64,000 bases of DNA, taken from positions 310,001 through 374,000 of the forward strand of contig OY282352.1 in the NCBI GenBank assembly GCA_958295495.1. The letters are read 5' to 3'. Below the pieces are notes generated by a model. That model ran no database searches, was not told the origin of the DNA, and saw nothing but the letters and a program-made list of their open reading frames with translations. Of the stretch, positions 6,252 through 11,387 are shown in pieces (the first letter of the stretch is position 1; each line of letters starts with the position of its first letter). The DNA is from an uncultured Latescibacterota bacterium (GTDB lineage: Bacteria > Latescibacterota > UBA2968 > UBA8231). Made by a program: the position numbers and the translations under genes.

Positions 6252-6680
6252 TCAAGCGGCCCTGTCGCCGATCACGAGGCTGCGGCCAAGTGCGCGGAGG
6301 GCGGCTTCCACGCTGCCAATATGAGACCGATGATTGGGATTGCACAGCTTGCACACATAGCTTGCGCCCATGCCTAGCTTGGCGGCAAGTTCGACCTTGG
6401 TGACGCCTTGAATCCGCATAGCTGTATAGAGCGCTAGCTTGGCGGCGAGGAGTGGCGGGACCGCTACCATTTGCTGCCCAAGACCAGCGGCACTCGGGAC
6501 CGGAATGTCCTCGCAGTTGCTGGCGTATGCGCTTAGTGCGACAACCAAGGCGTCCTCGGCCATTTCCAAAGCTTCGGCTTGGTTGTCGCCACACGTCAAG
6601 GCTGCGGGAACATCTGGAAAGAAGACGGAAAACCCGCCTTCTTCCTCGGGCGTCAATACACAGGGGTAAATATAATGCAT
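6252..6680 (-). CDS. hicB: HicB family antitoxin
   Basis: Antitoxin of a type II HicAB module, 142 residues. The N-terminal HicB fold reads MHYIYPCVLTPEEEGGFSV, then FPDVPAALTCGDNQAEALEMAEDAL. The C-terminal part has a helix-turn-helix (VTKVELAAKLGMGASYVCKL), which would bind the operon's own promoter. It neutralises HicA, an RNA-cleaving toxin. The gene starts at 6680, sharing one base with the hicA stop (TGATG), so toxin precedes antitoxin, the usual order. The conserved core ends about 20 residues before the stop. Confidence 0.88.
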   Translation of the reverse strand: MHYIYPCVLTPEEEGGFSVFFPDVPAALTCGDNQAEALEMAEDALVVALSAYASNCEDIPVPSAAGLGQQMVAVPPLLAAKLALYTAMRIQGVTKVELAAKLGMGASYVCKLCNPNHRSHIGSVEAALRALGRSLVIGDRAA

Positions 6681-6886
6681 CAGAAATCCTCCTTAGGGAT
6701 ACCGAGTTGTTTCAGCATAGCGCGAAAGGTTCCCGGCTTCAACTCGCCGCGCTGTACGACGGTACGACGGTTTCCAAGGTAGATCATCCCATGGCTACCC
6801 TTGCCGTGGCTGCTATCGAAACGGTATTCCCGACCAGTTTTCCTCGCGTAACGCTTGACTTGCCGGATGAATTCCGTTCCGTTCAT
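6680..6886 (-). CDS. hicA: HicA family mRNA interferase toxin
   Basis: Small double-stranded-RNA-binding-fold toxin that cleaves mRNA. The 68-residue form begins MNGTEFIRQVKRYARKTG; the catalytic histidine is expected in DSSHGKGSHGMIYLG, and the end LKPGTFRAMLKQLGIPKEDF is the typical HicA tail. The frame is open further upstream to 6934, but the ATG at 6886 matches the family start. It is coupled to hicB. Confidence 0.88.
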   Translation of the reverse strand: MNGTEFIRQVKRYARKTGREYRFDSSHGKGSHGMIYLGNRRTVVQRGELKPGTFRAMLKQLGIPKEDF

Positions 6887-6954
6887 GGCAAAAATATACA
6901 CCAAAACGGGCGATTTGTTGGACGATTTCAACAAAAAGCGGAAGCGGGCCTTCC

Positions 6955-7005: not shown

Positions 7006-8022
7006 TCAATCCCGCCAATCGACGACCACCCCGACGATATCCCCATCCCGCTCCCGCTTAATGCGCTCGTACATCGCCGGCATCTGGGCGCACCCTATCC
7101 GATGGGTAATGCAGTGTTCCCACTTGAGCACTCCCATCGCCATGTTTTTGATCACAGCGCGGCGGCAGGGCTGCCAGCCGTCGTCGCAGGGAAAAAACAT
7201 CTGTAGCCGCTTGCCGTGCGGCGTAGGGAAGTTTAGGGCGACCGGCTCGTCCCCGTAGTGGCCCTGCCAGACGAAAGACCCAAATCGCCGACAGAGAGCA
7301 ATCGCCGGATCGATGCACTGCGGATGCCCGGTACACTCGAATACCACATCGGCACCTTCGGACGCGACCTCCCGTACTACAGCGGCCACGTCCTGCTCTT
7401 TGCCATTGATTGCATAATCCGCTCCCAACGCCTTGGCGACTGCCAGCGGTTTTTCGTCAATATCCACCGCCACCACCATGCACCCCCGCTGAGCACAAGC
7501 CGCCACCACCCCTAAGCCAATCATCCCCACCCCGTGTACCACCACCGTATCTCCCATCCGCGGATTGGCCATATCGACGCCATAGAGCCCCACTGCCGGC
7601 ATCACAAATAAACTCGCCACATCCATTCCCGCCCCGGGCACCATCTTCGCCACGCCATGCGTGGTATTGGGCCGAGTCACGACGCGACTGCAATGCCCGC
7701 CGGAAATGCACCCGACCTCCGTCCCGTCGGCCAGCCTCATCGCGTCATTGCCGCGAAAGTACACTTCGTCGCCGACCGCAAAATTGCCGACAGCGGCCCC
7801 GACGGCTTCTATGGTGCCCGTGCCCTGATAGCCGGTACACAACGGAAAGGGGTTGTGGTCCATCTTGCTGATCTTGCCGCTGATCAGTCCGAACTCGGTG
7901 CCGATACTGACCCCGGTGAAATGTGTGCGGATCGCGACTTGGTCGGGGGCGGGATCGTTCAGTACGACCGCAGTCAGCGCGAAACTTTGCTGTTCGTCGC
8001 AGATGAGCGCTTTGGCATCCAT
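7006..8022 (-). CDS. Medium-chain dehydrogenase/reductase without the usual zinc cysteines
   Basis: A 338-residue MDR-superfamily protein. The GroES-like N-terminal half contains GVSIGTEFGLISGK where zinc alcohol dehydrogenases have C-G-S/T-D, so the catalytic cysteine is absent. The four-cysteine structural zinc lobe is also missing. The Rossmann half has VVHGVGMIGLGVVAACAQRG and VVAVDIDEKPLAVAKALGAD, then VVFECTGHP. The SIGTE motif is shared with BchC-like and related sugar/cyclitol dehydrogenases, so an NAD(P)-dependent polyol or hydroxy-acid dehydrogenase is likely. It has no obvious operon partner. Confidence 0.8.
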   Translation of the reverse strand: MDAKALICDEQQSFALTAVVLNDPAPDQVAIRTHFTGVSIGTEFGLISGKISKMDHNPFPLCTGYQGTGTIEAVGAAVGNFAVGDEVYFRGNDAMRLADGTEVGCISGGHCSRVVTRPNTTHGVAKMVPGAGMDVASLFVMPAVGLYGVDMANPRMGDTVVVHGVGMIGLGVVAACAQRGCMVVAVDIDEKPLAVAKALGADYAINGKEQDVAAVVREVASEGADVVFECTGHPQCIDPAIALCRRFGSFVWQGHYGDEPVALNFPTPHGKRLQMFFPCDDGWQPCRRAVIKNMAMGVLKWEHCITHRIGCAQMPAMYERIKRERDGDIVGVVVDWRD

Positions 8023-8091: not shown

Positions 8092-10494
8092 TTATTTGCG
8101 CTCGGCGATTTTGCAGACCCAGATGCTAATTTCGTAGAGCAGGAGCAGGGGCAGGGCCATGAGGATCTGGGAGACCGGGTCGGGAGGCGTGAAGATCGCG
8201 CCGAGGACGAAGATGCCGATGATGGCATAGCGGCGGATATGGCGCATCCGTGCGGCAGTCAGCACCCCGACCTTGGCCAAAAAGAGCGACAGCACGGGCA
8301 TCTCAAAGACAATGCCAAAGCCGGCTATGAGCCGCAGCACAAAGCCGATGTACTCGTCAGCCGCCCATTGGGAGGTCATGTCGGGCGGCTCTAACGCGAG
8401 GAAAAAGCGCAGCCCGAGCGGGAGGACGATGTAATAAGCGAGTAGTGCGCCGACCGAGAAGCAGAGGACGCTCAGCGAGATAATGGGTAGCATGAGCCGT
8501 TTCTCGCGCTGCAAAAGCCCCGGGGCCACAAAGCTCCAGGCTTGGTAAAAGATGGCCGGCAGCGCGAGCAGCAACCCGCCGACAAAGGCGATTTGCAGGC
8601 TGATGAAGAAGTAGGTCATGGGCCGCAGGGCTTGCAGCCGGCGCGCCGGGGGTAGGTCGGCGAGGGGCGCGTCCGGCTCCGGCGCAGCACGGGGCTGGCC
8701 CAACCACTGGCTCACCAGCTTTTTGACCGCCCGCACAGCACCCGAGGATTGCTGGTTTTCCAAGCTGAGGACGGCTTCTTCGTACGGCCGGGTCAAGATC
8801 TGCACAATCGAGTCGGAGAGGGCAAAGCAGATCACCGCACCCACGGCGAGCGCGCCTAGGGCCTTGAGAATGCGCCAACGAAGTTCTTCGAGGTGGTCGA
8901 GAAAGGGCATGTTGTCTGCTCGGGGCGGGTCTGGTTCGCGGTCAGTTACCGCTGGCTCGCGGGCGAGTTGCGGGTTGCGGAAACGGGCGGCGAGGGCGGC
9001 AAGGGCGATCAGCAGGCAGCCATAGGCGAAGAAGTCGCCGTGCCGAGTGTAGAAGGTAGCGGGTTGGCCGACCGGCACGGTGGCAACCGCGACCGCGGGA
9101 GTGAAGAGGTCGGTCGCCTCGTAGGTGCGGCCAAACGGGTCGATGAACAGGGAGATGCCGGTGGTGGCAGCGCGGGCGATGGCCGTGCGGTTTTCAACGG
9201 CACGCATGGCGTTGATGAGCGCGTGTTGGTAGGGCCCCGCGCTGCGGCCAAACCACGAGTCATTGGTGATGTTGACCAGCACGCGCGCCCCGGCCGCCAC
9301 GTGCTGGCGGACGAGATCGGGAAAGATGGACTCAAAGCAGATGAGCACGGCAAAGGGATGCCGGGGATGGGCAAAAACCGCGTGCTCTGTGCCACGTGCG
9401 AATTCTGCCGGGCCGAGGTCGCCGGTCAGGCGGGTCCAGTCGATGTCGCGCAGTAGGGGGATGGCGTCTCGGTAGGGAGTCCGCTCGCCAAAGGGCACTA
9501 AGTGCATCTTGGCGTACGAAGGCAGGGCCCCGGCCCCGACCCCGGGCTGTACGAAGAAGGCCGCGTTGTAGTTCGCCTGCGGCGCACCGGTCAGCAAGGA
9601 AATGCCCAACTCCTCGACGAGTGCTTGGACGCGACCTCGGCAACCGGCCCGGCGCACGGGATCGCACGGCAGGGCGGTTTCGGGCCAGACCAGCAACTCG
9701 GGATCGCGCTTGGCCGCTTGGCGCGAGAGCGCGGCGAGGGCTGTGAAACTGCGCTCCAGCCCATTGGGTCCCCACTTGTCGGCGTACGTGGTGTTTGGCT
9801 GGATCAGGCCGATGCGCAGGCTCTCGGCCGGAACGGCCGCAGCCAGTGCGCTCTGAGCGTGGAGCCAAGGCAAGAGATAGCCCAAGGCAATGCCCGCGAG
9901 AAAGACGCGCCGCTCGACGAGCACCAAGTAGAACAGCGCGTTGAGGCCAACGACCCAACAGGAGACGCCAAAGACGCCGGTCCAAGTGGCGTACTGGATG
10001 AAGTGGGGCAGGGCCGCTTGGCTGTGCCCCAGCAAGAGCCAGGGAAACCCCAACTCCCCGAGGGAGAGCAGGTATTCCTGCCCGGTCCACAATAAAGGCA
10101 GCAGTGCAAGCGCCTTCGCACCCCACCGCGCGGCGAGCACGTTGAACAGCCCGATGCAGAGGCCGGTAAAAAGGCCCAAGTACGCGGCCATCAGCCCAGT
10201 GCCCCCAACGACGGCGGGCCCCCCGCCTTGGGTATAGGCCACCCAGTACAGGGACAGCAGATTCCAGACCAAACCGCTGATCCAGCCCGCGGCAAAGCCG
10301 CTTTTGAATCCGCGGCCCTGCAGCGCAAGCAGCAAAGGTACTAGCGCACAATGGGCCCAGAGCGGATGATAGAGAAAGGCGAGAGGGTGATCCGGGTGGC
10401 TGGGAAAGGCCAGCGCGAGTAAGGCCCCGCTCAGGGCGGCGAGCAGCAGGCGGTAGAGCGGGGTTAGGGCCAGAACAAAGCGCGGATTAGACAT
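8092..10494 (-). CDS. Apolipoprotein N-acyltransferase - TatC fusion protein
   Basis: One 800-residue frame joins two membrane proteins. Residues 1-528 are Lnt, which N-acylates lipoproteins. A multi-helix N-terminus is followed by a nitrilase-type domain with the expected Glu in LLVWPETALP, Lys in SYAKMHLVPFGERTPY and Cys in VLICFESIFPDLV, then a last helix. Residues 529-800 are TatC, the twin-arginine translocase receptor: MPFLDHLEELRWRIL, later FVAPGLLQREKR and a final GAIFTPPDPVSQILMALPLL. The TatC part has an extended periplasmic loop (RAVKKLVSQWLGQPR and following) between helices 1 and 2. No stop separates the halves. An in-frame ATG at 8910 could also start TatC alone, though without a strong ribosome site. 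Start ATG 10494. Confidence 0.88.
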   Translation of the reverse strand: MSNPRFVLALTPLYRLLLAALSGALLALAFPSHPDHPLAFLYHPLWAHCALVPLLLALQGRGFKSGFAAGWISGLVWNLLSLYWVAYTQGGGPAVVGGTGLMAAYLGLFTGLCIGLFNVLAARWGAKALALLPLLWTGQEYLLSLGELGFPWLLLGHSQAALPHFIQYATWTGVFGVSCWVVGLNALFYLVLVERRVFLAGIALGYLLPWLHAQSALAAAVPAESLRIGLIQPNTTYADKWGPNGLERSFTALAALSRQAAKRDPELLVWPETALPCDPVRRAGCRGRVQALVEELGISLLTGAPQANYNAAFFVQPGVGAGALPSYAKMHLVPFGERTPYRDAIPLLRDIDWTRLTGDLGPAEFARGTEHAVFAHPRHPFAVLICFESIFPDLVRQHVAAGARVLVNITNDSWFGRSAGPYQHALINAMRAVENRTAIARAATTGISLFIDPFGRTYEATDLFTPAVAVATVPVGQPATFYTRHGDFFAYGCLLIALAALAARFRNPQLAREPAVTDREPDPPRADNMPFLDHLEELRWRILKALGALAVGAVICFALSDSIVQILTRPYEEAVLSLENQQSSGAVRAVKKLVSQWLGQPRAAPEPDAPLADLPPARRLQALRPMTYFFISLQIAFVGGLLLALPAIFYQAWSFVAPGLLQREKRLMLPIISLSVLCFSVGALLAYYIVLPLGLRFFLALEPPDMTSQWAADEYIGFVLRLIAGFGIVFEMPVLSLFLAKVGVLTAARMRHIRRYAIIGIFVLGAIFTPPDPVSQILMALPLLLLYEISIWVCKIAERK

Positions 10495-10667
10495 CGGCAG
10501 TGGGGGTGATGTGCAAAAATATAGGAGGGAGGCCAAGGCGGAGCAAGGTGCTGGCACAGATTCTGCTTATTTACGTCGGTTGCGTCTAGTGCCCAGTGGC
10601 TTGTGGGGGCTAGACGCTACATTCGCGTGGTCTTTTTACTACAGCTTTGCCCAAGGAGGAAAGCGCC

Positions 10668-11387
10668 GTGCCAACGCAAACTCAGCCCATTGACTACGAC
10701 TTTGCCGCCCGCACTGTGGGCGAAGGGACCCCCTTCCACCGCGACGAACTGCCGCGAGAGCGGCTCGCGCGCTTGGGACCGCAGGCACTCAAGGACCAAG
10801 AGCTGTTGGCCGTGGCCTTGGGGACGGGGTATCGCGGTCGGCACGTAATGGACTTGGCCGAGGGCATCCTCGCCGATTACCCCAAGGAATCGCTGGTGGA
10901 TATGGATATAGGGGAATTGAGCCGGATCAAGGGGCTGGGCAAGGCCAAAGCCGGGGTCTTAGTCGCGGCGTTTGAACTGGCGCGTCGTGGGTTGCACAAG
11001 GGCTTGGGGGTGCGCCCGGTGATTAGCGCGCCCGGCGACGCGCTGTCCATGCTTTCCGACATCAAGGATCAGCAGCGCGAGCACTTTCTCTGCCTGTATC
11101 TCAACGCCCGCAATCAGGTGATCCACAAGGAGATCGTGTCCATCGGCAGTCTATCTTCGGCCATCGTGCATCCGCGCGAGGTCTTTCGCACGGCCGTATC
11201 GCAGGCTGCGGCCAGCGTGATCTTGGCGCACAACCATCCCTCCGGCGACGTGTCGCCCAGCCAGGACGACATCAACCTGACGCGGCGCTTGGTGCAGGCC
11301 GGCGAAATCATGGGCATTGACGTGCTCGACCACCTCATCATCGGTAGCGACGATTTTCTCAGTTTGAAGGAGCGCGGCTTGATCTGA
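10668..11387 (+). CDS. radC: RadC family (UPF0758) JAMM-domain protein
   Basis: A 239-residue RadC-family protein: an N-terminal helix-hairpin-helix region (LSRIKGLGKAKAGVLVAAFELARR), then an MPN+/JAMM domain with the metal site HNHPSGDVSPSQDD. Despite the name, a DNA-repair role is not established for this family. The GTG at 10668 is preferred because AAGGAGG lies eight bases upstream at 10653-10659; the frame is open back to a TTG at 10647. The gene is divergent from lnt-tatC, and the 173 bases between (10495-10667) should hold both promoters. Confidence 0.92.
   Translation: MPTQTQPIDYDFAARTVGEGTPFHRDELPRERLARLGPQALKDQELLAVALGTGYRGRHVMDLAEGILADYPKESLVDMDIGELSRIKGLGKAKAGVLVAAFELARRGLHKGLGVRPVISAPGDALSMLSDIKDQQREHFLCLYLNARNQVIHKEIVSIGSLSSAIVHPREVFRTAVSQAAASVILAHNHPSGDVSPSQDDINLTRRLVQAGEIMGIDVLDHLIIGSDDFLSLKERGLI

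Follow-up and report, generated by a model that had tools for sequence, protein, structure and literature searches.

Why should an enzyme of lipoprotein maturation and a subunit of a protein translocase be encoded as one polypeptide? Lipoprotein maturation is usually described as the work of free enzymes that meet their substrates after the Sec or Tat step. A reading frame that joins apolipoprotein N-acyltransferase (Lnt) to TatC therefore raises the questions of whether both halves are genuine, whether they stay together and what their union might serve. The frame lies in a stretch of 64,000 nucleotides (the window) from an uncultured Latescibacterota bacterium, whose genome is assembled as one contig of 5.97 Mb with 94.8% completeness and 8.9% contamination. 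Its close named relatives are Candidatus Latescibacterota metagenome-assembled genomes, some of which are labelled Gemmatimonadetes.

The fusion gene occupies positions 8092..10494 on the minus strand, with an ATG at 10494 and a stop codon at 8092-8094, and comprises 800 codons plus the stop; an in-frame GTG at 10557 is an alternative start that would give 821 codons. Three parts follow one another in the frame: a complete Lnt (the first 505 residues), a short polar linker and a complete TatC (residues 529-800). The Pfam domains over their cut-offs are LNT_N, the membrane domain of Lnt (PF20154, 96.7 bits; residues 22-187, 9934..10431, minus strand), CN_hydrolase, its catalytic nitrilase-like domain (PF00795, 91.7 bits; residues 246-475, 9070..9759, minus strand) and TatC (PF00902, 235.7 bits; residues 533-782, 8149..8898, minus strand). 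These are the only Pfam domains of the chain, and a polyprenol-phosphomannose synthase domain is absent from its C-terminus. The NCBIfam models for the two full-length proteins also score above their equivalog cut-offs, with 309-312 bits for TIGR00546 (lnt; cut-off 132.9) and 213 bits for TIGR00945 (tatC; cut-off 132.7). The gene is flanked by a divergent RadC gene (10647-11387) and a zinc alcohol dehydrogenase gene (7006-8022); at 6252-6934, in its vicinity, lies a toxin-antitoxin pair with a HicA-like member, just under the cut-off, and a HicB-like member.

The catalytic triad of Lnt is named E267-K335-C387 for the E. coli enzyme in the available text of PMC5500888. By alignment, its counterparts in the window protein are Glu272 (9679..9681), Lys329 (9508..9510) and Cys386 (9337..9339), all on the minus strand. 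Among 146 fused rows, drawn from the overlapping sets of 116 proteins and 30 genome frames, the lysine and the cysteine are kept in all 146 and the glutamate in 145, the one miss being a contig-cut row. Other Lnt sites are variable in these rows: what we take to be the E389 site is D in 73, the Y388 site is F in 130, and the presumed W237 site is unaligned in 74 of the 146. The six TatC core residues (E15, P48, F94, E103, E170 and D211), which we take to be the positions for signal-peptide binding and function in E. coli, are all present in the window protein, and each is kept in 141-146 of the 146 fused rows. The count is 142 for E103 and 141 for D211: both are lost in P0047-P0050, whose sequences look frameshifted, and D211 is also missing from the cut row of G028. 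The original prediction, of an uninterrupted 800-codon frame with a complete Lnt bearing all three catalytic residues and a complete-looking TatC, is thus borne out in each of these points by the Pfam and NCBIfam matches and by E272, K329 and C386.

The same architecture recurs among database proteins. Two protein searches were made, each scoring roughly 8,000 candidates that shared the most words; the second took as its query an f3 protein from the last Lnt helix through the linker and TatC (residues 500-789), which biases it to Lnt partners. Lnt followed by TatC in one chain, which the original prediction proposed to search for, was found with all three domains together in 117 of 182 distinct listed proteins (the best 120 of 267 and the best 120 of 331). 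In the second search, the only TatC partner other than Lnt was NadA, in 4 proteins among the best 120 of 331.

We then asked how the two genes are arranged in 64 genomes of the phylum. In the window's family (f1), 10 of the 25 genomes are fused, 10 are tandem and 5 are unresolved; tandem genes are also seen in the sole f2 genome. Of the 21 genomes of f3 and f4, 20 are fused, counting the contig-cut G028, with G044, which has no TatC match, as the exception. Twelve of the 17 genomes of f5-f10 have TatC and Lnt over the cut-offs, always on different contigs of fragmented assemblies. In all, 41 junctions were read, those of the window and of 40 relatives, of which 30 are fused in frame and 11 are tandem genes. 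The original prediction was open to challenge from relatives in which separate, abutting genes are the rule: such genes occur in 10 of the 20 resolved f1 genomes, yet 30 genomes in four clades are fused. Farther away, the window's TatC matched none of 63 more distant Lnt loci (L018-L080; mostly from other phyla, with flanks of at most 6 kb, several ending at contig edges), so that adjacency of lnt and tatC as a general bacterial pattern is not supported by these loci. A different joining was seen in one genome of 57% completeness (G062), where TatC and an RnfB-like iron-sulfur protein, named by eye, share one open frame (L237/L162); the related f5 genomes G055 and G063 have a TatC frame without the RnfB-like part, and either faulty assembly or a recent fusion may account for the G062 frame.

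The only TatC match lies in the fused frame in 29 of the 30 fused genomes; G028 carries TatC pieces at the ends of two contigs, one covering model positions 1-95 and the other 101-208, as expected of one cut gene. The fused frame is also the only Lnt over the cut-off in 21 of the 30 (20 of f3/f4, plus G012), including two single-contig, 99% complete genomes, with weaker nitrilase-like matches existing in these genomes. This sole occurrence of both proteins in the fused frame argues that both halves work. Other genes of the two pathways are present: Lgt and LspA were found once each per genome in the 4 genomes searched, and the window's genome has Lgt, LspA and a TatA/B-family gene, one each, located elsewhere, the last as a TatA_B_E gene at G000:C1:5569725-5569877. 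Five genomes of this class (G000, G004, G014, G027 and G030) each gave a single TatA/B-family match at E values up to 0.1, whereas G049, outside the class, has two over the cut-off; the Tat system of this class thus looks to be of the minimal TatA-TatC type.

An AlphaFold2 model of the fusion, built from a 63-row alignment in which the window protein was joined by 62 of the other 181 listed proteins, has a mean pLDDT of 81 and a pTM of 0.67. It matches solved Lnt chains with target TM-scores of 0.78-0.86 and solved TatC with target TM-scores of up to 0.82. Model confidence is low in the linker (residues 509-527, pLDDT under 50), in the first periplasmic loop of TatC (583-587 and 600-626) and in three Lnt stretches (1-8, 336-342 and 351-365). 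The linker, which runs from the last Lnt helix to TatC (residues 506-528; 8911..8979, minus strand), is predicted to be disordered and cytoplasmic. Measured in 21 of the 30 fused frames, it is 21-77 residues long, and it differs in length and sequence among the fused junctions; in G004 this region includes 5.9 tandem copies of an 18-nt unit, a length that keeps the frame. The C-terminus of Lnt and the N-terminus of TatC are both expected to face the cytoplasm, which makes a fused chain workable.

The first periplasmic loop of TatC is lengthened in the window protein (residues about 583-626; 8617..8748, minus strand) and is mostly of low confidence in the model. The long extra loop that the original prediction pointed out is thus present, but it does not belong to the fusion. 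The TatC match is longer in f1 than in the other families and, judged by these lengths, unfused f1 members have the loop while the fused sister families are without most or all of it; a link between loop and fusion was rejected on these grounds.

The reading that we prefer, and to which we would give about an even chance, is that the gene encodes a single membrane protein in which an active Lnt would be tethered by a flexible cytoplasmic linker to each receptor TatC, probably for the sake of Tat-exported lipoproteins. The last Lnt helix would end inside the cell and TatC would start inside, making the linker cytoplasmic, and the halves would fold as in the solved structures. In solved Lnt, the nitrilase domain is periplasmic and lies between H7 and H8 (available part of PMC5500888); the structure of TatBC shows a trimer of heterodimers, and that of a TatAC complex is also available (available part of PMC13323110). 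A receptor of three TatC subunits would then bear three periplasm-facing Lnt modules, and lipoproteins leaving the Tat site would meet Lnt at once. The tether would raise the local concentration of Lnt and fix the ratio of the two proteins, without direct channelling of substrate; because the steps of Lgt and LspA precede that of Lnt, we go no further than local enrichment and a fixed stoichiometry. In genomes with no other Lnt over the cut-off, the fusion must also acylate lipoproteins exported by Sec.

Tat signals with a lipobox do exist in these genomes, as a minority of their Tat signals, and they indicate that fitting substrates are encoded. By a strict lipobox pattern devised for this analysis, six fused genomes have them in 7 of 46 Tat signals, two unfused tandem genomes in 3 of 9 (G014 and G020, one of the 3 matches being late and unlikely) and three unlinked genomes in 0 of 11; with a relaxed pattern ([GAS]C) the counts are 18 of 46, 3 of 9 and 2 of 11, respectively. 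The signals counted are 36 over the cut-off in one set, with 21 below it left out, and 30 of 93 in a second set, with 62 of G056 and one of G020 left out. A DctP-domain protein of G027 (f3) begins with RRDFIKK...LLAGC, and similar N-termini occur in G030 and in G046 (f4). A molybdopterin-enzyme-like protein in the window's genus also has a Tat signal and a lipobox; its best NCBIfam match is QrcB with 67.6 bits, far below the cut-off of 440, and it has no Pfam match. Three loci (L164, L166 and L217) combine a twin-arginine signal with a clear lipobox, LLAGC, and likely encode Tat-exported lipoproteins; a DctP domain was found in L164.

Since lipobox Tat signals also occur in unfused relatives, the purpose of the fusion is not proven by them. 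The original prediction had proposed a link between lipoprotein maturation and Tat export, for example for acylating Tat-exported lipoproteins. The first part is upheld by a conserved single-frame fusion with intact key residues, and on this sequence evidence a physical linkage of Lnt and TatC is strongly supported; that the linkage would serve Tat-exported lipoproteins goes a step beyond these data.

How the two genes came to be joined is suggested by their unfused relatives. Each of the 11 has a candidate start codon for tatC (TTG in two, otherwise ATG) at -14 to +4 nt relative to the lnt stop. Four of them (G006, G008, G018 and G022) have lnt and tatC in one frame, separated by a single stop. 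With 30 fused genomes falling into four clades, we take the fusion to have come from the tandem arrangement. The clades were defined on a tree of Lnt and TatC without linkers (44 rows, 702 columns) and consist of f3 with f4, G012 with G017, G023, and seven genomes of the window's genus; support for the deep branches of this tree is weak (55-71), and two outgroup rows with long branches stand beside f3/f4. A single clade of all fused rows (22 versus 14) was rejected with an AU p of 1.5e-6, and a single clade of the f1 fused rows (10 versus 26) with an AU p of 1.9e-46; the test used a quick tree from which eight near-identical g9 rows had been removed, leaving 36 of the 44, for groups named after the tree had been seen. 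Under equal costs, parsimony needs 4 changes from an unfused root and 6 from a fused one, and a second tree also gives four changes. When the gain of a fusion costs twice its loss, the two roots tie or differ by one, and when it costs three times as much the fused root is cheaper (8-9 versus 10). About four separate fusions would most simply describe this history under equal costs, while an old fusion that split repeatedly would be the cheaper history at a threefold cost of fusion; the direction depends on the costs.

Alternatively, the joining may have been nearly neutral. In that case abutting, probably co-translated lnt and tatC would have lost the stop between them, and the domains would work independently, with at most their ratio fixed. 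We consider this well possible, although short of an even chance. The position of the tatC start in all 11 unfused relatives and the shared frame in 4 of them favour it, as does a linker that is predicted disordered and varies; its low complexity, too, is what a neutral joint would equally show. Fused and unfused states moreover coexist within single genera (g1 and g6), indicating that the fusion is not indispensable. However, the same pair was, under equal costs, fused about four times, which argues for a benefit, and the fused state is held across two whole families (20 of the 21 genomes of f3/f4). Taken to its full extent, the reading of a TatC-tethered Lnt would have each Tat receptor carry the enzyme, uniting the translocation of folded proteins with the final step of lipoprotein maturation in one complex that was selected about four times; we offer this extension tentatively and regard it as rather unlikely.

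It is also conceivable, but improbable, that the halves are separated in the cell, either by internal initiation at the TatC methionine or by proteolysis of the linker, the common frame then being a device for co-expression. The possible internal start, Met529 (8908..8910, minus strand), opens the TatC core motif MPFLDHLEE and is kept in 145 of the 146 fused rows. In f3, a Shine-Dalgarno-like motif precedes it in 14 of 15 genomes (4 of 5 genera; loci L105-L111, L113, L146, L149, L150 and L152-L155), against 45 of 337 other internal ATGs there, and it is also found in the single g6 genome; f3 bacteria may thus produce free TatC alongside the fusion. In contrast, the motif is missing from the window, as from all seven genomes of its genus, from both g3 genomes and from four of the five f4 genomes (present in one), and the codon, ATG in 29 of the 30 fused genomes, is ATA in G012. 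The D/E-rich end of the linker makes chance occurrences of such motifs more likely, and the f3 rows are close relatives of one another. The window's lnt ATG itself has, by eye, no Shine-Dalgarno-like motif, so that such motifs may be rare here. Internal starts would, besides, add free TatC but cannot prevent the fused product; with no stop between the halves, a ribosome that finishes Lnt must continue into TatC.

A second Lnt is present in nine fused genomes, all of f1 and the window's genome among them; at least two Lnt matches over the cut-off occur in 17 of the 25 f1 genomes, compared with one in the fused genomes of f3/f4. The fused Lnt of such genomes might have lost its role as an enzyme and act as a scaffold or helper of TatC, which we hold to be very unlikely. 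The standalone Lnt of the window's genome (L236; G000:C1:4714757-4716250) does have an intact E-K-C triad and a higher score with the lnt model than the fused Lnt (341 versus 312 bits). Yet the three catalytic residues are kept throughout the fused rows save for the one contig-cut glutamate, and 21 of the 30 fused genomes have no other Lnt over the cut-off.

An assembly or sequencing artefact, by a lost stop or an indel, has hardly any probability left: two near relatives in the database (P0052 and P0053) break off within the linker, the former apparently out of frame, but the junction is open in frame in 29 of the 40 relatives, in separate assemblies that include three other single-contig genomes, which excludes a missed frameshift or stop in the window as the cause. 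P0052 and P0064, near relatives of the fused Lnt, have similar repeat-like tails, possibly out of frame, where TatC is expected, which are possibly due to natural splitting or to an assembly error within the repeat.

A recurrent covalent link between Lnt and a translocase suggests that both can profit from proximity. In 21 of the 30 fused genomes, TatC bears the only Lnt found to pass the cut-off. The fusion is also a natural construct for asking whether lipoprotein processing is organised around export sites. Annotations should be corrected, as the named records among the listed proteins say only Lnt, only TatC, or hypothetical. No description of an Lnt-TatC fusion was found among the titles and abstract openings listed from the open-access literature, a body of text outside which most subscription papers lie, and the words "fused" and "fusion" are absent from the available part of a survey of TatC diversity (PMC3827258). 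The protein thus consists of known parts in an architecture that we did not find described and that was, most simply, built several times.

With the Lnt and TatC of E. coli, the fusion shares the fold, the catalytic triad and the TatC core residues. In E. coli, Lnt and TatC are two proteins from two unlinked genes; here they are one chain. The TatC-NadA proteins (P0179-P0182) are similar in that a TatC chain is combined with a second enzyme domain, but there TatC comes first (P0179 and P0181) and the partner is a quinolinate synthase. Inserts in the first periplasmic region of TatC are known from M. xanthus and N. salsuginis (available part of PMC13323110); the likeness to the f1 loop is one of position, extra residues in that region, and the insert here is common to fused and unfused f1 members. 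The closest parallel is Ppm1 of M. tuberculosis (Rv2051c), where Lnt and Ppm1 form one chain, while other mycobacteria and corynebacteria have adjacent separate genes, and where the functions are coupled: in C. glutamicum, a lipoprotein acylated by Lnt depends on the Ppm1 partner for its glycosylation (available part of PMC3460810). In both systems Lnt is the N-terminal half of a two-part chain whose parts are adjacent genes in relatives; the partner in M. tuberculosis, however, is a sugar-phosphate synthase, and that of the Latescibacterota is a protein translocase.
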